From: a virus
Direction: 5' to 3' (one strand)
Length of the DNA: 24,211 nt
Virus record (IMG/VR): IMGVR_UViG_3300023284_000208
Coordinates: 1-24,211 of that record
Shown: piece by piece, positions 5,661-18,222 of the stretch
How positions within the stretch are numbered: the first letter of the stretch is position 1
Layout: every line of letters begins with the position of its first letter
Position numbers and translations under genes: made by a program
Notes under the pieces: generated by a model
Seen by the model: the letters and a program-made list of their open reading frames with translations, nothing else
What the model was told of the DNA's origin: nothing
Databases searched by the model: none

Positions 5661-5681
5661 TTTCCTGAAATATGTCTTGAC
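5661..5681 (+). repeat. upstream promoter motif, copy 1
   Basis: These 21 bases are identical to 6924-6944. Both copies end inside the -35 box of a promoter and contain the dyad TTTC-CT-GAAA. In this copy the dyad extends to ATTTC-CT-GAAAT, and a second TTTCCTGA lies 12 bases upstream (5649-5656 and 5661-5668). The placement suggests binding by a shared regulator, which is inferred. Confidence 0.75.
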
Positions 5682-5704
5682 TACCTGTAGTAATGTAGTA
5701 ATAT
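5677..5704 (+). promoter_or_regulatory. sigma70-type promoter P1
   Basis: TTGACT (5677-5682) and TAATAT (5699-5704) are separated by 16 bases, followed by an AT-rich run and then a GGAGG-containing leader to ATG 5732. It drives the unknown gene at 5732 and lies in the only sizeable gap (96 bases) after the recombination operon. Its layout repeats at 6940-6968. Confidence 0.75.
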
Positions 5705-5731
5705 ATAGGTGGAGGCTGAAGGGAGAAAGAG

Positions 5732-6931
5732 ATGATGGCACTGGCTGAGAAAACTGAGATCACCCGCTGGATTCCCGATGAGAACCTGGAGAAGCTCCGG
5801 GCGCGGATCAGGAGCATGGGCCGCAGGGCCAGCAAGATCGGAACCGATCCGGTGACTTTGGAGGTCCTGGAGGATCGGCTGGTCAAGTCCGATGATGGGC
5901 TCTATTTCTCGAAGGAGGTCGAGGTCCGGGTCACGGGCGAGACGCCCAAGATCGCTGGCTGGACCTTCGCGGCCACCTTGGAGCACACTTCCGAGGGCAA
6001 TATCCTGCGGACGATTCCGGGCATTGAGCTTCCCAGCTACTATCGGGACTGCCCACCGACCTGCGAGCATTGTGGTCTGATGCGGAAGCGCAAGGACACC
6101 TACGTGGTGCGCCACGAGGATGGCACCTTCAAGCAGGTCGGTAGCAACTGCCTCCAGGACTTCCTGGGCGGAATCAGTCCCGAGGTGGCAGTGGCCATGG
6201 CTGGGTGGCTGATCGAACTGGCTGACCCTTCCTGGGGCGAGGGTAGTGGTGGTGGGGAGCGTTACTTCTCGGTCAAGGACTACCTTGCCTTCGTGGCCGT
6301 GGAAATCCGAAACAATGGCTGGACGAGCCGAGGGACTGAGCGCGATACCATGAAGACATCGACCGCTACTGCGGCGCTGCACTCGATCTTCCCCACGACA
6401 CCTTACGACCGGGAGCACCGGCTGGTCCCGGACCCCCAGGACGATGAAATGGCTGAGAAGGCCGTCGAGTGGGTTTTGGGCCTGGACGCTGAGGAGGTCG
6501 CTGGAAGCGACTACCTGAACAACCTGAGCGTGACCATCAAGATGGAGGCGATCACCTACCGTGAGGCAGGGATCGGAGCCAGCGCGATTGTGGCTTACCG
6601 CCGGGACGTGGAGAAGAAGGCCGAGGAGGCGTCGGGCGTAAGCGAGTGGTTCGGTGAGGTCAAGAAGCGGAGCACGTTCGAGTTGACCTTCCTGGGCCAG
6701 AACAGCTTCGAGGGCCACTACGGAGTCACTTGGGTGGTTCGGCTCCGGGATAAGGACGGGAACAGTGCGGTATGGTTCAGCAGTTCCTATCCAGGGATCG
6801 GCGACGACGCCCTGGAGATCGGTCGGACCTACAAGGTCAAGGCGACTGTGAAGGACCACGGGGACTACAAGGGCACGAAGCAGACGGTCCTGACCCGCGC
6901 CAAGTTCCTGGAGAAGATGGAAGTTTCCTGA
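5732..6931 (+). CDS. phage zinc-knuckle protein with possible OB-like C-terminus, function unknown
   Basis: This 399-residue protein matches a phage family I have seen without an assigned role. Its hallmark is a cysteine cluster at about residues 107-145, CPPTCEHCGLMRKRKDTYVV, followed about 16 residues on by QVGSNCLQDFLGG; together these probably bind zinc. The C-terminal 90 residues (FELTFLGQNSFEG... to GRTYKVKATVKDHGDYKG) alternate strands and end in a basic hairpin, like an OB or other nucleic-acid-binding beta barrel; that is inference. ATG 5732 and 5735 are both possible, behind GGGAGAAAGAG. The gene has its own promoter (5677-5704), and its last codons are embedded in the regulatory motif of the next promoter. 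Probably a DNA- or RNA-binding protein made at high level. Confidence 0.8.
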   Translation: MMALAEKTEITRWIPDENLEKLRARIRSMGRRASKIGTDPVTLEVLEDRLVKSDDGLYFSKEVEVRVTGETPKIAGWTFAATLEHTSEGNILRTIPGIELPSYYRDCPPTCEHCGLMRKRKDTYVVRHEDGTFKQVGSNCLQDFLGGISPEVAVAMAGWLIELADPSWGEGSGGGERYFSVKDYLAFVAVEIRNNGWTSRGTERDTMKTSTATAALHSIFPTTPYDREHRLVPDPQDDEMAEKAVEWVLGLDAEEVAGSDYLNNLSVTIKMEAITYREAGIGASAIVAYRRDVEKKAEEASGVSEWFGEVKKRSTFELTFLGQNSFEGHYGVTWVVRLRDKDGNSAVWFSSSYPGIGDDALEIGRTYKVKATVKDHGDYKGTKQTVLTRAKFLEKMEVS

Positions 6932-6944
6932 AATATGTCTTGAC
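6924..6944 (+). repeat. upstream promoter motif, copy 2
   Basis: This is the second exact copy of the 21-base motif at 5661-5681. It includes the stop codon of the preceding gene (TGA 6929-6931) and runs into the TTGACA box. Here the dyad is limited to TTTC-CT-GAAA and no second upstream TTTCCTGA is present. Confidence 0.75.
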
Positions 6945-6968
6945 ACATTACATAGGGTGTAGTAAGAT
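6940..6968 (+). promoter_or_regulatory. sigma70-type promoter P2 (near consensus)
   Basis: A perfect -35 TTGACA (6940-6945), a 17-base spacer and TAAGAT (6963-6968) make this the strongest promoter seen in the window. The leader after it shares the string GTGGAGGCTGA with the leader of P1, then has AAGGAGG before ATG 7002. It should drive the genes at 7002 and 7562, up to the terminator at 8002-8036. Confidence 0.85.
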
Positions 6969-11680: not shown

Positions 11681-13652
11681 TGACGTAAAGTTTCTTGACC
11701 GTCTGATTACTCAGGTCAAGTTGCTTTCGTCCCAAGCACAGAAGGCTGCCTGGGAAATCTTGCGCCAGTGGCGAGACCAGGGAAAGTCTTCGGTCCTTCG
11801 TAATATATGGCAGATTGACTTCGAGCGTGAGCCCGTCTCGATTAGCCAGTTCATCGAAGATGACTACTACCTGGGGAAGATATGCAATCCCAAGGACGAG
11901 GACCAGGGACGGCTCTACGACGTTTGGAAAGAGGACCTGATGTATGTCTGTGATCCCCGATCTGGGATCATCGAGTGGGCGCTGACCGGAGCGATCGGCA
12001 CGGGAAAAACTACGGCTGGTGTGTTGGGCATGATTTACAAAGGCCCATACATGCTTAGCTGTATGCGGGACCCGTCTCGTTTCTTCGGGCTGATGTCCAA
12101 GTCCAAGATCGTCTTTGGTATCTATGCGACTACGGTAAGTAAGGTCAGTGCTGTAGACTTCGCTGAGTTCCTGGCCAAGATCGACGCCAGCCCCTACTTC
12201 AGAGAGGTCTTCCCAAGGGTTCCCAACCTGAGCACCATGGCCAAGTGGCCGCAGAAGAATATGCACGTCAGCTTCGGCTCCAGGGAACTGCACGCTCTCG
12301 GTGAAAACCTCTACAGCTTCTTAATGGACGAAGTGAACTTCATGGAGCGCCCCAAAGGCAAGAATCCAGAGGACAATCCGGAGCAAGCCTACAAGCTATT
12401 CCACGCCTGTCGGACTCGTATCGAGTCCAGGTTTGCCCGACGTGGTATCATTCCTGGTCTGATGGTCCTGATCTCGTCTCGGAATACGAAGACCGACTTC
12501 CTTGAGAGACGCCTAGAAATGGTTCAGGGGCGGAAAGATGTCCATATATCGGACTACTCGCCTTGGGACGTGCGGAAGTCCTTTGGCGATAAATTCTACA
12601 GTGGCAAGAAGTTCTCTTTGTCTCTCGGAAACAAGTACGTGAGGCCGAAGATACTGGAGGAGGGCGATGCCACGCCGGCTGGTGTTGAGACGATAGAGGT
12701 TCCCATCGAGCACAAGCAGGCTTTCATCGACGATATAAATCAGGCCCTGCGGGACGTTGCGGGCGTGGCCACCTTCGGTCGTAATCTTCTCATCCATGAT
12801 CCTCAGCGGGTGATGAAGGTTATAAATTGGGGCCGAGCACATCCGTTCTCAGCCGAGTCGATCTCCGTGACACTGGACGACCAGGTAGAGATTTCGGACT
12901 TCGTAGATTGGGACTCGCTGGTCCGGATCAGGGATTCCTCCTACGTGCCGAGGATCGACCCAGGAGCACCGCGTACTGTTCACGTGGACCAAGCTACCAG
13001 TAACGACAGCTTGGGGATTGCGCTGGGCCATGTTCAGGATTTCATCCTGGTCAGGCGTGAGGACCCACTCTCTGGCCATGTGATGAATAGCTACGAGCCA
13101 AAAATCTTCATTGATATGATGATGAAGATCACTCCTGGAAAGGACTCGGAAGTCGATCTGACCAAAGTGATTACGTTCCTCTTGAACCTTCGCAACTACG
13201 GCTATAATCTGAACCTCATCACGTATGACGGCTGGCAATCCAAGATTGCGCTTCAGCAGTTCCAACGTCTGCACTATAATGCCAAGATTCAATCTGTGGA
13301 TCGCACAGACGACGCCTACATTGCCCTGCGAACAGCGATCTACGAGGACCGGCTGGACATTTATGATTACGCTCCTTTCTTCGATGAGATCACCAACGTC
13401 ATTCACATCATTAGACGGCGCGAGGGCGATCCACAGCGCAGAGGGAAAGTGGACCATGGGCCAAACGGCTCCAAGGATGTGTCAGATGCTGTGGCCGGCG
13501 TGACGATGAACTGCTACGAGATCGCTGAGGCACCGGCCGTGACTCCAGAGCAGGCAGCGGCGTTGGCTGCGACGATCGCCCCGCCTGCCAAGAACAGAGA
13601 CTCTTGGGTGTTGCAGGATTATAAGAAGGGCCGAATCATCGGAGTCCAATAA
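11601..13652 (+). CDS. terL: terminase large subunit (DNA packaging ATPase-nuclease)
   Basis: The 683-residue protein has both TerL domains. The ATPase motor shows Walker A TGAIGTGKTT (129-138) and Walker B FLMDEVNFM (Asp243, Glu244). The RNase-H-like nuclease shows three acidic positions: Asp463 in VHVDQATSNDS, Asp543 in ITYDGWQSK, and Asp629 in KDVSDAVAG. It translocates DNA into the prohead through the portal encoded next, and cuts the concatemer. ATG 11601 is preferred: AGGAAG lies just upstream, and the longer frame from 11526 only shadows the previous gene. A helical N-terminal region of about 100 residues precedes the motor and may bind the small subunit. The stop overlaps the portal ATG (TAATG). 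No intein or intron interrupts it. Confidence 0.95.
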   Translation: MDNLTIPPSEPALREYLEALRSVVQNDDVKFLDRLITQVKLLSSQAQKAAWEILRQWRDQGKSSVLRNIWQIDFEREPVSISQFIEDDYYLGKICNPKDEDQGRLYDVWKEDLMYVCDPRSGIIEWALTGAIGTGKTTAGVLGMIYKGPYMLSCMRDPSRFFGLMSKSKIVFGIYATTVSKVSAVDFAEFLAKIDASPYFREVFPRVPNLSTMAKWPQKNMHVSFGSRELHALGENLYSFLMDEVNFMERPKGKNPEDNPEQAYKLFHACRTRIESRFARRGIIPGLMVLISSRNTKTDFLERRLEMVQGRKDVHISDYSPWDVRKSFGDKFYSGKKFSLSLGNKYVRPKILEEGDATPAGVETIEVPIEHKQAFIDDINQALRDVAGVATFGRNLLIHDPQRVMKVINWGRAHPFSAESISVTLDDQVEISDFVDWDSLVRIRDSSYVPRIDPGAPRTVHVDQATSNDSLGIALGHVQDFILVRREDPLSGHVMNSYEPKIFIDMMMKITPGKDSEVDLTKVITFLLNLRNYGYNLNLITYDGWQSKIALQQFQRLHYNAKIQSVDRTDDAYIALRTAIYEDRLDIYDYAPFFDEITNVIHIIRRREGDPQRRGKVDHGPNGSKDVSDAVAGVTMNCYEIAEAPAVTPEQAAALAATIAPPAKNRDSWVLQDYKKGRIIGVQ

Positions 13653-15328
13653 TGCCACCAGGAAACGGTATACTCAACAAGCTGGCCAATCTGATGGGCC
13701 TCGATAAGCCGGCTGGTGAGGTTCAGCGCATCGGCACTCCGGTAGGAGAGCCAGATGCTCTCCAGGACATCTCTACGGTCAATCGTGTCTACGACTACTA
13801 CCGTAAGTACACCCACCTGAATCCGGATCGTCTGTCGCTCTACGACGACTATGACGAGATGGACCAGATGACTCTGCTCGCCTCTGCCTTGGACCTGTAT
13901 GCCGAGGACTCTACCCAGCCCGATCACGAGAAGGGCGTGGCCCTGTGGATCGAGTCTGAGGACGCGGAGGTCAAGGCAGAACTCGACAAAATGCTGGGTC
14001 GTATCAATCTTGAGGAGGACATCACCGCCATTGCTCGGGGCATTGCCAAGTACGGCGATGACTTCGAGGCCACGATGTACAACGAGGAGCATGGCGTATT
14101 CGGCTTAACCTTCCTGGAGCCCAAGATCGTCTGGCGGCATGAGGACAAGAACCGGGTGCTGGAAGGCTGGTCGGTTGGCGCAGCTAAGAAGATCGACGAG
14201 AAGCCAGGCTACCAGCCTTGGGACATTGTCCATGGCTTGAGAAAGGGCCGGCGTCGTAACGAGATGTACGGCGATAGCATCCTCCTCCCGGCTCGGCTGG
14301 TCTATAAGATTCTGAAGCTCATGGAAGAGCAGATGGTCATTTACCGGCTGAGTATGCACCCAGACCGGCTGATCTTCTACGTGGACATCGGCGCGGCCTC
14401 ACCAGATGAGGGTAGGACGATATTGGACGCCTGGCGCAGGGCCATGCAAAAGAAGCAGTTCTTCAACCCCAAGACGGGCCAGTACCAGGAAGAATACAAT
14501 CCGTGGGCGCTCGACAACAACATCTATTGGGCGACTCGCCCCAACTCCGAGAGCAAGATTGAGAAGTTCCCCGGCAGTTCCAACGTCGGAGAGATTTTCG
14601 ACGTGGAATACTTCCGGGACCTGATCTTCTCAGCGATCCGGGTTCCGAAGGCATTTCTGGGTTTTGAGGGAGACATCAACGCAAAAGCCACGTTGGCGCA
14701 GCAGGACATTAGATTTGCTCGTGGCGTGAAGGGCATCCAGCGGGCCACTAGGATGATGATTCACCGTGCGGGCCAGATTCATTTGGGCCTTCGGCAGCGT
14801 AATCCTCGTGACCGCAAGCACGCTTTCAAGACCAAGATGACACCTGTGAGCTATCTGGACGAGGCCCAGAGAGCGGACCTGTACCAGCTTCGCTTCGAGC
14901 TTCTGGACCGGATGAGCAGGCTATCGACCGACTTCGAGGGGACACTGGACCAAAAGAAGTGGCTCACGTACCTGCTCGTGGACATTGCCGGATTCTCCAA
15001 GGAGCTTGTGGCAAAGCTGATGGACCTTGGAGGTGACGAGGTGCAAGGTGATGATGAGCCCAGCCAGGATGAGAAGCGTGCTCTTGGCGAGGCCATCAAA
15101 TCCTCTCCTACAGCCCGGAGAATGCTCGCAGAAATGACGGAATTGGCACGTGAGGAGGAGCAAGTTCCAGAGCAGGAGGTTCCGACCGAGCATCCGGGGG
15201 AGCACGTGGGCATCTCCAGCCTGTCTGAGACCAGAGCGGCTGAGAAGGAAGCCGAGGAAAAAACTGAGTCTCGACGCAAAGAAAGAGAAAAAGACCGTGC
15301 AGAAGCTTATGCCGCGCCGGTTAGTTAA
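13652..15328 (+). CDS. portal protein (T4 gp20-like)
   Basis: The 558-residue protein fits the dodecameric portal at the packaging vertex. The most telling stretch is the gp20-type block ending in the head-tail crown: YWATRPNSESKIEKFPGSSN, then VGEIFDVEYFRDLIFSAIRVPKAFLG. The N-terminal half includes the wing region (SALDLYAEDSTQ, AIARGIAKYGDDFEATMY), and the C-terminus is a charged helical tail (from about 470) rich in Glu and Arg. It follows TerL directly and precedes the HU-like gene by two bases. Length agrees with gp20-type portals. The gp20 resemblance is the main reason to call this a myovirus-like phage, although portals of this class also occur elsewhere. Confidence 0.9.
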   Translation: MPPGNGILNKLANLMGLDKPAGEVQRIGTPVGEPDALQDISTVNRVYDYYRKYTHLNPDRLSLYDDYDEMDQMTLLASALDLYAEDSTQPDHEKGVALWIESEDAEVKAELDKMLGRINLEEDITAIARGIAKYGDDFEATMYNEEHGVFGLTFLEPKIVWRHEDKNRVLEGWSVGAAKKIDEKPGYQPWDIVHGLRKGRRRNEMYGDSILLPARLVYKILKLMEEQMVIYRLSMHPDRLIFYVDIGAASPDEGRTILDAWRRAMQKKQFFNPKTGQYQEEYNPWALDNNIYWATRPNSESKIEKFPGSSNVGEIFDVEYFRDLIFSAIRVPKAFLGFEGDINAKATLAQQDIRFARGVKGIQRATRMMIHRAGQIHLGLRQRNPRDRKHAFKTKMTPVSYLDEAQRADLYQLRFELLDRMSRLSTDFEGTLDQKKWLTYLLVDIAGFSKELVAKLMDLGGDEVQGDDEPSQDEKRALGEAIKSSPTARRMLAEMTELAREEEQVPEQEVPTEHPGEHVGISSLSETRAAEKEAEEKTESRRKEREKDRAEAYAAPVS

Positions 15329-15814: not shown

Positions 15815-16027
15815 ATGAACTTCAAGCAGGCATCTCAGTTCGTCCTGCCCTATGGCAGTCATAAGGGCCGCTCCATTGACGGCGTGGCTTCGACAGACGA
15901 GGGCCTTCGGGACCTCGACAGATTCCTGTCTTGGCTGGAGGATAATCGTCCGGGGACTGACGTGCATGGGGCTGTCAATACCTACCTCTCCGATCCAAGC
16001 ATTCAGAAAGAGCTTCAGAGCCTATGA
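15815..16027 (+). CDS. small DUF3820-like protein
   Basis: The 70-residue protein contains LPYGSHKGRSIDGVA and then LDRFLSWL. This resembles the small domain with an FGxHKGxxL motif followed by YLxWL found in DUF3820 proteins and at the end of some exonucleases; its role is unknown. ATG 15815 is chosen because it lies 2 bases after the preceding stop and gives the expected domain start; the longer open frame from 15704 only shadows the previous gene. The stop overlaps the next ATG (ATGA). Confidence 0.65.
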   Translation: MNFKQASQFVLPYGSHKGRSIDGVASTDEGLRDLDRFLSWLEDNRPGTDVHGAVNTYLSDPSIQKELQSL

Positions 16028-18222
16028 TCGAGATCGACGGATTCATGCTTCGTGCCGAGACTCGCTCTGAGCAGCGCGAGTTCGAGCAGGTCCTGGAAGG
16101 TATCTACCACACCGAACTGGACCTTGAGCCATACATCGTCGGCGATCAATCTATAAACAAATACCTGGAGGGTCTTTGCGACTGTGACCGATGTGTCACT
16201 GAGGCCAAAGCGCTTGGCAGCAAGAGGTCCAGGAATCCTACCAGAGACAGGCTGATCCGCAGGGGTGCTCAGAAGGACCTGGAGGGTTTTGCCAAGCGGA
16301 GAAAGAAGCTCACCACGGCCAGTAAGAAGTCGTTCGAGAAGATTTCCACGGATGTATACAACCGCCTCGTCCGGTTGATGGACGGGTTCGTGGCCGGCCG
16401 CGTAGCTGCAACTCAGGCCCCTGAGTACGCACAGACGGCAATCCTCCTACCTCGACAGCCTACCCGGATGGCCAGGGGCCGAGGGAAGTCCAGGCCCGTG
16501 AGCTTCGACAGGTTCAAGAAAGAGGCCAACAGCATATTCCGGGACGCTTACCACCGCTCGTATCTGCTGGGATTCCGCTCTGCTGGCACTGAGACGTTTA
16601 CTCGACAGGGAATCTCTCAGCTTTCTCGGGAGGATGAGCGCTTCATTCGCTCGGCGATACGGCAGGAGATGGTCTACTTCAACAACTTCCTGGGCGACAT
16701 GAGGAAGCGGCGTGGCCGGATGCCATATCCCAAACGCCTAAAGATGTACACAGAGTCATTTTACAATATGTACATGAACGGTCGGGTCATGGCCACGCCA
16801 GGTGACCACGTGATCCATTGGGTATCAAGACTCGATGAAAACACCTGCATGGGCTGTCACTGGCTCAGTGAGCGGTCTCCGTTCACGAGAGATCGTCTGC
16901 CGTCGTCCCCACGCTCTGGATACACACCATGCCTATGTCTTACAAACTGTCAGGTTGACATTTTGACTGACGGCGGGTATACTCCCCTCAAGGACGTAAA
17001 GGAGGGTGACTATGCCTACACACATAAGCAGAGGTGGAGAGAGGTCAAGAAAGTCCACAAGTTCAAAGCCACGGAAGACCACCGATTCGCCGTCATTGTT
17101 GGACGGAATGGTAGCCTGTTCGGAATCACACAGGACCATCCGGTCTGGACCCAAAGAGGTTGGATGTCTGCAAGAGACGCCTCTCTCGCGGGGGAACTCA
17201 TATTGCATGGTCTGCGGGGATCAAGTTGGCCCACGCAACAGGTCGGGTCACTGCCGGAGTTGTGCGACTTCAGGGCAGTGGAAAGGGCAGAGAGGCGAAA
17301 AGAAGCGAGAAGCTGTCAGGAAGGCTCACAGGTCTCGGAGGCGGCAGTACATCGACTTGAAATGGGAGAACTTTCGCCAGCGGCCAGATGGCCGATACAT
17401 GGCGAGGTATTGGGAGGGCGATCAGACCCATTGGGTATTTCGCTCCAGATGGGTGTGGGAGCAGCACAATGGCCCCATCCCTATGGGATTTATCATTCAC
17501 CACAAGAATCGGGACCGGAGCGACGACCGACCGGAGAACTTGGAGGCGAAGGAGTTTCGGAAGCATTCCCAGGACCATGGTGCGGAGGAGAGGATAGAAG
17601 CAGAGAAACGGAAAATTACGGTCAAGTGTCTGGGGTGCGGGTTGGACTTCTTGACGAGGCCAAAGAGAATACAACAAGGCCGTGGGAGATATTGCAGCCA
17701 CCTTTGCGCCGATGGAGCGAGGCAGAAACGTGTTCAGCTAACCTGCGATCAGTGCAAGGTGAATTTTCAGAGAAAGCTATCGGAACACCAGAAAACAACA
17801 GGGTTCGAGAACACTTTCTGCTCTCAAACCTGCTTCAGAAAGTATCAGAAGGTATCTCATTGGATGACCCTGCGGTGTTCTTACTGCAAAAAGAGTTTCG
17901 AGAGAATAAAGGGAGAGGTCGAGAAGCAGAGGAGGAAGTCACCGAAGGCGAGATCATTCTGCTCGAAGGATTGCTTCCTGGAATCTCTCTCTACGACCTC
18001 ACTGTAGAGGAAGACCATTCATTTGTGGCTTCTGGATTGGCTATCCATAACTCCAACTGTCGGTGCAAGTTGTACATGAGGCGGGCAAGCCTCAAGGAAA
18101 GGCGCAGCATTGGCCAGAGGCAGGTGTCGATCGAGTACGCCCTGAAACAGCTACGCAAGATCAAGGAGCGCCAGATTAAGTTCAGGCCCTCGTTCAAGCC
18201 AGGGTCTAGTGTGCGCTCATAA
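16024..18222 (+). CDS. MuF-like minor head protein interrupted by an intein
   Basis: This 732-codon frame encodes a phage head protein split by an intein. The N-extein (1-304) is a basic, helical protein ending in DENTCMGCHWLSERSPF and SGYTPCL; the C-extein (677-732) begins SNCRCKLYMRR. Joined, they read TPCLSNCRCKL, the normal zinc-binding C-x2-C...C-x3-C-x-C end of SPP1 gp7/Mu F-like proteins, which act at the portal and are packaged in the head. The mature spliced protein would be 360 residues. An additional Cys-rich CDCDRC lies near residue 53. The start overlaps the previous stop (ATGA). The intein is entered separately. The extein match is strong because splicing restores the family signature exactly. 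Confidence 0.85.
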   Translation: MIEIDGFMLRAETRSEQREFEQVLEGIYHTELDLEPYIVGDQSINKYLEGLCDCDRCVTEAKALGSKRSRNPTRDRLIRRGAQKDLEGFAKRRKKLTTASKKSFEKISTDVYNRLVRLMDGFVAGRVAATQAPEYAQTAILLPRQPTRMARGRGKSRPVSFDRFKKEANSIFRDAYHRSYLLGFRSAGTETFTRQGISQLSREDERFIRSAIRQEMVYFNNFLGDMRKRRGRMPYPKRLKMYTESFYNMYMNGRVMATPGDHVIHWVSRLDENTCMGCHWLSERSPFTRDRLPSSPRSGYTPCLCLTNCQVDILTDGGYTPLKDVKEGDYAYTHKQRWREVKKVHKFKATEDHRFAVIVGRNGSLFGITQDHPVWTQRGWMSARDASLAGELILHGLRGSSWPTQQVGSLPELCDFRAVERAERRKEARSCQEGSQVSEAAVHRLEMGELSPAARWPIHGEVLGGRSDPLGISLQMGVGAAQWPHPYGIYHSPQESGPERRPTGELGGEGVSEAFPGPWCGGEDRSRETENYGQVSGVRVGLLDEAKENTTRPWEILQPPLRRWSEAETCSANLRSVQGEFSEKAIGTPENNRVREHFLLSNLLQKVSEGISLDDPAVFLLQKEFRENKGRGREAEEEVTEGEIILLEGLLPGISLYDLTVEEDHSFVASGLAIHNSNCRCKLYMRRASLKERRSIGQRQVSIEYALKQLRKIKERQIKFRPSFKPGSSVRS
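16936..18051 (+). mobile_element. intein in the MuF-like protein (372 codons)
   Basis: All splicing motifs are in the host-gene frame. Block A starts at Cys305 (CLTNCQVDILTDGGY, then VKEGDYAYT). Block B has the TxxH pair in ITQDHPVWTQRGWMSARDA. Block F is LYDLTVEEDHSF, and block G ends AIHN at residue 676, with Ser677 as the +1 nucleophile. No splicing residue is missing, so it should be active. The roughly 260 codons between blocks B and F (17195-17983) give no recognisable protein in this frame, while the +1 frame encodes an HNH endonuclease. The intein sits at TPCL/SNCRC, in the conserved zinc-site end of the family, a typical place for inteins to persist. Confidence 0.9.
17012..18007 (+). 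CDS. HNH homing endonuclease nested out of frame in the intein
   Basis: In the +1 frame relative to the intein, a 331-codon gene encodes a clear HNH protein. Its core is YMARYWEG, VWEQHNGPIPMGFIIHHKN, DRPENLEAKEFRKHSQDH, with the paired His, Asn and final His residues of the HNH family. Before it lies a CMVCG...CRSC zinc ribbon. After it come three tandem zinc fingers (VKCLGCG...YCSHLC, LTCDQCK...FCSQTC, LRCSYCK...FCSKDC). ATG 17012 follows a near-perfect Shine-Dalgarno (AAAGGAGGG, 16998-17006), although the same bases also encode the intein's conserved KEGD. ATG 17207 is a shorter alternative, but it would cut the first zinc ribbon. Translation could also occur by frameshifting from the intein. 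It stops at 18007, within the intein's C-terminal block. Confidence 0.8.
   Translation: MPTHISRGGERSRKSTSSKPRKTTDSPSLLDGMVACSESHRTIRSGPKEVGCLQETPLSRGNSYCMVCGDQVGPRNRSGHCRSCATSGQWKGQRGEKKREAVRKAHRSRRRQYIDLKWENFRQRPDGRYMARYWEGDQTHWVFRSRWVWEQHNGPIPMGFIIHHKNRDRSDDRPENLEAKEFRKHSQDHGAEERIEAEKRKITVKCLGCGLDFLTRPKRIQQGRGRYCSHLCADGARQKRVQLTCDQCKVNFQRKLSEHQKTTGFENTFCSQTCFRKYQKVSHWMTLRCSYCKKSFERIKGEVEKQRRKSPKARSFCSKDCFLESLSTTSL

Follow-up and report, generated by a model that had tools for sequence, protein, structure and literature searches.

The window analysed here is the whole stretch of DNA of 24,211 bases (positions 1 to 24,211) from the IMG/VR virus record IMGVR_UViG_3300023284_000208, a virus contig and not an isolate genome, and its subject is an intein-bearing gene, probably for a head protein, that is overlapped in another reading frame by a gene for an HNH homing endonuclease. 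The host open reading frame (ORF) carries the intein splicing blocks in its own frame and stays open across the HNH gene, which lies in the +1 frame; this second frame is open from 17000 to a stop codon at 18005–18007, and measures 996 nt from ATG 17012 to that stop. A preliminary description of the locus, made from the sequence, had placed the splicing blocks in the host frame, had found the HNH core and four zinc modules in the +1 frame only, and had given both frames as open together for 996 bases at 17012–18007. Its coordinates and content were right (ORF 16024–18222; ATG 17012 to stop), and the assignment of the domains to the two frames was borne out by the profile, alignment and structural results below.

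The Pfam profiles HNH_3 (E = 1.4e-15) and zf-FCS (E = 2e-7) both match, and their matches are confined to the +1 frame. In an alignment of 20 sequences, the catalytic H, H, N and H columns of the HNH were invariant, and the four zinc modules of the window are marked by the pairs CMVC/HCRSC, CLGC/YCSHLC, CDQC/FCSQTC and CSYC/FCSKDC. The best Foldseek match of the HNH model was I-HmuI, though weak (E = 1.8e-3). Counted from ATG 17012, residues 1–60 of the HNH, which shadow blocks A and B of the intein, are predicted to be disordered.

The Pfam profile Intein_splicing was matched in the host frame only, at E = 2.7e-4 and with a score under the gathering score. The N-terminus of the intein, CLTNCQVDILTDGG, was placed by comparison with the nearest relative of the window, a locus designated L132, and begins with Cys1 at 16936 (CLTNCQV); a second and more obvious cysteine, at 16948, was ruled out as Cys1 by the same comparison. 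The motif set of a class 1 cis intein is present (Cys1, the block B TxxH as ITQDH, the terminal His-Asn, and Ser+1), and columns C1, G14, H68 and N372 were invariant in the alignment of 53 inteins from this study. In the AlphaFold 2 (AF2) model, for which the input was the intein alignment minus two rows, the predicted local distance difference test score (pLDDT) was about 79–97 for residues 1–90 and 91–95 for residues 351–372 but about 40 across much of the middle, with short helices of medium confidence near residues 107–126 and 262–326. The PDB matches of the model in Foldseek were almost all inteins (E = 8e-5), the best being gp41-1, MchDnaB-1 and Mycobacterium smegmatis DnaB. The ends of the intein are thus confidently predicted to form a Hint fold and, together with the low-pLDDT middle and the Foldseek matches, this indicates that the host-frame product would be a mini-intein broken by a long, largely unstructured spacer. 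The features of the locus are collected in Table 1.

Table 1. Coordinates of the host gene, the intein and the overlapping HNH gene in the window
Feature	Position	Strand	Basis or remark
Host ORF, interrupted by the intein	16024–18222	+	732 aa, open frame end to end
Intein, 372 aa, Cys1 ... His-Asn, followed by Ser+1	16936–18051	+	Alignment, AF2 model, Foldseek
N-terminal splicing region, blocks A and B; ITQDH at 17125–17139	16936–17200	+	Alignment, model; 25/89 identical to L132
Candidate Shine–Dalgarno sequence, AAAGGAGG	16998–17005	+	Six bases 5′ of ATG 17012; −12.1 kcal/mol to the anti-Shine–Dalgarno
HNH homing endonuclease ORF, +1 frame	17012–18007	+	331 aa from ATG 17012; alternative starts 17108, 17207
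Overprinted stretch: host frame an open, apparently unstructured spacer; +1 frame the HNH protein	17201–17963	+	Stop statistics
N-terminal zinc ribbon YCMVCG...HCRSC, +1 frame	17201–17263	+	Cys pattern
HNH catalytic core IIHHKN...ENLEAKEFRKH, +1 frame	17492–17566	+	Pfam; conserved columns
Three C-terminal FCS-type zinc modules, +1 frame	17627–17974	+	zf-FCS E = 2e-7
C-terminal splicing blocks F/G, LYDLTVEEDHSFVASGLAIHN	17989–18051	+	C-terminal 36-aa stretch 20/36 identical to L132

The open host frame over the HNH is not luck. In the window the host frame is HNH+2, and a host stop requires T at the third position of an HNH codon followed by AA, AG or GA at the start of the next; as a change from T to C at that third position is always synonymous, every one of these stops is avoidable with the HNH left unaltered. 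Within the 254-codon HNH core, T-ending codons stood at 0 of 81 risky sites compared with 44 of 172 sites elsewhere (P = 6e-9). No host-frame stop was observed there, whereas the synonymous shuffles gave a mean of 11.4, and the three null models (synonymous shuffles, codon-order shuffles, and the codon usage of other window genes) predicted 11.4–13.9 stops, none of them giving zero in 5000 draws. The reverse test, with the host frame as reference, found 0 HNH-frame stops against 4.5 expected (P = 0.001). T was likewise avoided at risky sites in relatives of the same phase (0/57 in L132, 0/49 in L135 and 0/49 in L142), but not at those sites in free-standing HNHs (773/2974) or in loci of the opposite phase (2080/7523). 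Substitutions fell mainly at HNH third positions (0.49–0.58 in overprinted and 0.52 in free-standing loci), and the HNH is therefore the protein-constrained frame. Chance as the source of the open frame was ruled out by these codon tests. The preliminary description had already judged such an open run unlikely, which the shuffles confirm, though its estimate of (61/64)^260 is a crude null and the codon-aware one is stricter; the codon constraint that it had proposed to compute was found as a specific avoidance of host-frame stops in the codon choice of the HNH frame.

When the full host ORF or the full HNH was used in pattern searches, no close relatives were returned, and it was alignment searches that reached them. 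A tblastn search of annotated phages with the HNH gave matches within the terL genes of Tetrasphaera phage TJE1 and Acinetobacter phage Highwayman, in both of which intein blocks A, B, F and G lie in the terL frame and the HNH in a different one; a Rhodobacteraceae phage and a fecal phage scaffold have a like layout. Searches with the HNH alignment then yielded 80 viral and 34 genome loci plus a further viral set. The HNH of L132 is identical to that of the window at 62 of 174 positions, and its intein shares the insertion motif CL|SNCRC, the C-block, the phase and the two open frames. The host ORF of L132 encodes a portal protein (phrog_3753, E = 1e-44), with the motif in its C-terminal extension. 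The spacers of the two loci align weakly (41/145), as expected for shadows of related HNHs. A second group of the same phase, L135, L136 and L142, lies in terminase genes. The profiles phrog_30251 and phrog_35162 give matches to the translated spacers (shadows) of several overprinted inteins and, given these matches, may be built partly on non-functional shadow protein.

By a looser criterion, 117 loci are overprinted, 113 in one phase and four in the other; the zero-stop count over these loci and the ATG-A count are circular, since the loci were selected for zero stops, and a frame-blind test was used instead, in which the intein C-block was sought near the 3′ end of the HNH in any frame. In this way a C-block was located next to a related HNH at 111 loci, and at none of them (0/111) did it lie in the HNH frame. 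At offset 1 there were 101 loci, mostly in terminase genes and of the phase opposite to the window, 92 of which were stop-free, where synonymous shuffling predicts 291 stops and about eight stop-free loci; at offset 2 there were 10, four of them stop-free. The host frame was thus open across the HNH in 96 of the 111 loci, and the out-of-frame position of the HNH is the rule within this HNH family. The host genes tested were almost all terminase large subunits, and the fetched loci are not an unbiased census of architectures, because the queries came mostly from overprinted elements. One locus, L186 (3212–7141), has an HNH match within an ORF of 1310 codons, the frame of which also encodes an intein-like C-block, and may be an ordinary in-frame HNH intein; its HNH match is short, and it was left out of the frame-blind count. 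Further arrangements were noted among the loci: L057 (1–2835) has two inteins in one terL ORF, each with an overlapping out-of-frame HNH ORF; L079 (1038–4748) and L093 (1218–4802) each have a terL-like ORF in which a LAGLIDADG-type insertion precedes an overprinted HNH intein; and overprinted HNH inteins, possibly in proviruses, occur in L098, a Thermoplasmatales archaeon metagenome-assembled genome, and in L117 and L118, Patescibacteria-type assemblies.

Host-frame stops were present in the remaining 15 of the 111 loci (L010, L030, L041, L060, L074, L083, L089, L096, L100, L103, L109, L115, L154, L173 and L198), most of which have a distinct C-block (VYNMEV...NGGxIxHN), and these look like fractured genes with split inteins. 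Phage CL2 (L010), with its C-block in a closed frame, is of this kind, and in Vibrio phage 1.245.O (L013, 161–3889) and Brochothrix BL3 (L012, 727–2607) the N- and C-terminal intein parts, IntN and IntC, are on separate terL ORFs with the HNH between them. Other relatives are free-standing and lie near a terL of ordinary, uninterrupted length, as in BP10, whose HNH is 50% identical to that of Highwayman. A tree of 151 HNHs gave 23 changes between the overprinted and other states, of which the starred branches force at least six, and k2 needed three changes; the window and L132 are on long branches, so that neither their placement nor the number of origins is to be trusted. The overprinted layout that the preliminary description had suggested is therefore supported by relatives and by stop avoidance. 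The related alleles it had proposed to compare include L132, in the same phase and open in both frames, and the 96 open loci, and the stops that it had named as a possible refutation are absent from all of these, yet their presence in 15 loci means that not every relative is overprinted.

The candidate Shine–Dalgarno sequence (SD), which the preliminary description had called strong, has the best anti-SD energy among all tested window sites, the 5% quantile of the background being −9.3. ATG 17207 has a moderate SD (−8.6 kcal/mol), and a start there drops the first cysteine of the zinc ribbon. The HNH of L132 begins MIKYCVKCG, directly before the ribbon, with AAAGGA shortly upstream of its ATG, and the corresponding part of the window, 17189–17212 (TCG CGG GGG AAC TCA TAT TGC ATG), is without such a start codon; the start in the window may have shifted upstream to 17012. 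Across the overprinted loci, an ATG 44–70 codons 5′ of the HH motif was present in 99 of 117 HNHs compared with 47 in the unused frame, SD matches of at least 5 nt occurred in 46% compared with 12%, and the HNH frame was often closed a few codons upstream of the positioned ATG.

The host ORF lies three small ORFs downstream of the portal gene at 13652–15328 (phrog_213, E = 2e-40). The spliced extein had no significant match in Pfam or PHROGs, and the host protein is therefore named from gene position and from the CL|SNCRC motif common with L132 as probably a MuF-like minor head protein. Elsewhere in the window, a GIY-YIG homing endonuclease gene (976–1794) is flanked by an exonuclease-like gene and SbcD/SbcC-like genes, and an antisense ORF of 421 codons (5681–6946, minus strand) lies opposite the gene at 5732–6931, which matches phrog_2319; long antisense shadows are common at the composition of the window.

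What the sequence shows directly is a set of intein blocks, an HNH domain and two frames that are both open, along with avoidance of stops and a layout conserved among relatives. Considering these, we propose the following scenario, in which the locus is very probably an overprinted intein whose head protein splices in cis, while the HNH is made from an internal start and drives homing. Translation of the head-gene frame would run its whole length, and the intein (from Cys1 at 16936 to Asn372, with Ser+1 after it) would excise itself in cis, carrying a spacer of about 250 residues whose only role may be to stay stop-free. An internal ribosome-binding site on the same mRNA would start a second protein in the +1 frame, the HNH endonuclease with its zinc modules, whose probable target is the CL|SNCRC site in head-gene alleles that lack the intein, and repair of the cut would then copy in the intein with the HNH inside it. 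The layout likely originated when a free-standing HNH gene, complete with a start and stop of its own, entered a mini-intein between blocks B and F, as is suggested by the free-standing relatives near a terL of ordinary length. Such a gene need not be in frame, because its own start comes along, and after its entry the host gene would purge stops from the host frame. Repeated switching between states is consistent with the HNH tree, which gives no firm count of origins.

Several points weigh against this scenario. Splicing, translation of the HNH, cleavage and homing, and the target site are all deduced from sequence. A search of annotated phages with the joined flanks of L132 returned no intein-free allele, and insertion at an empty site was not seen. 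The start of the HNH in the window is uncertain between ATG 17012, with its strong SD and predicted disordered tail, and ATG 17207, and the host protein, as spliced extein, is without a family match in Pfam and PHROGs.

The uncertain start also bears on two other explanations. Decay of intein endonucleases is a known phenomenon and, as the start codon in the window is unclear, the HNH ORF might be a decaying passenger, unexpressed or inactive in an intein that still splices; yet 331 codons are open, the HNH residues and zinc cysteines are kept, and the HNH frame is more open than expected with the host frame as reference, all of which makes decay unlikely. The HNH might instead have no start of its own and be produced by programmed ribosomal frameshifting from the intein frame, as a fusion of the N-terminal part of the intein with the HNH. 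No start codon of the window corresponds to that of L132, and most relatives have the HNH at −1 relative to the host, the phase that a −1 shift requires, but the phase differs in the window, in L132 and in the group of L135, L136 and L142, and the frequent closure of HNH frames a few codons 5′ of the positioned ATG, where ATG and SD are enriched, leaves frameshifting a decidedly poor prospect.

Two further explanations concern the host frame. The spacer could remain in the head protein as a retained, non-splicing insertion of the kind of the ShiLan domain, itself an out-of-frame HNH within an open insertion (PMC11855218), although the conservation of blocks A, B, F and G with all catalytic residues and a confident Hint fold, which ShiLan does not have, makes this very improbable here. 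Finally, since the window is a virus contig, assembly or sequencing indels could mask an ordinary in-frame fusion of intein and HNH. The layout recurs in several isolate phage genomes (including TJE1 and Highwayman) and in more than 90 loci, and indels give no stop avoidance at the codon level; the artefact, which the preliminary description had named as a possible refutation, is refuted by relatives with identical layout, and we give it practically no weight.

If the overprinted-intein reading is right, the layout looks like a widespread and maintained storage of a selfish gene inside an essential gene. We lean towards the broader view that overprinted inteins form a large and, to date, mostly unnamed class of phage mobile elements, with at least two opposite phases, several terminase and head-gene sites, several HNH entries, and an essential host gene that filters stops from the shadow frame, in which case the window would be a rare-phase member in a head gene. 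A literature search found no description of an out-of-frame endonuclease in a splicing intein, and a preprint on non-canonical actinobacteriophage inteins (Gosselin et al., 2025) may cover related ground; the window and the majority of the loci analysed here are contigs of uncultivated viruses. The normal picture of an endonuclease-bearing intein is of a single polypeptide that has two activities, which are here split over overlapping frames of one DNA, so that the selfish nuclease would be made apart from the host protein and yet be carried inside an essential gene. The locus is also a clean natural example of extended gene overlap on a single strand, governed by a readable rule, namely avoidance of third-position T or, in the other phase, of Met followed by A, and a plausible path from free-standing endonuclease to intein passenger. 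Furthermore, overprinting may explain why endonucleases are hidden in some phage terminase annotations, and the layout makes testable how two frames of one message both come to be translated.

In usual inteins, the endonuclease is in frame. The element of the window resembles such canonical inteins in its mini-intein splicing domain and in the location of the endonuclease between blocks B and F, but its HNH sits in the +1 frame, not in the intein frame, and would be a separate protein instead of a domain of the excised intein. Fractured genes, reportedly described by Dassa and colleagues in 2009 as split inteins whose halves flank an endonuclease ORF, share with the window an independent HNH ORF between IntN and IntC, as in Vibrio phage 1.245.O and Brochothrix BL3; their host frame, however, is broken, which makes trans splicing necessary, whereas that of the window is open and cis splicing is possible. 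The free-standing HNH_3/zf-FCS endonucleases beside terL (BP10, PAE1 and SN1) belong to the same HNH family and likewise have their own start and stop, but are not within an intein. The ShiLan domain is an out-of-frame HNH in a phage methylase insertion across which the host frame is open; it is without an intein splicing domain or a visible ribosome-binding site and is thought to remain in the methylase (Arsenault, Gosselin, & Gogarten, 2025; PMC11855218). The window and ShiLan are thus alike in having an out-of-frame HNH with zinc modules within an insertion that is open in a phage host gene, and differ in that the HNH of the window is enclosed by a complete intein.
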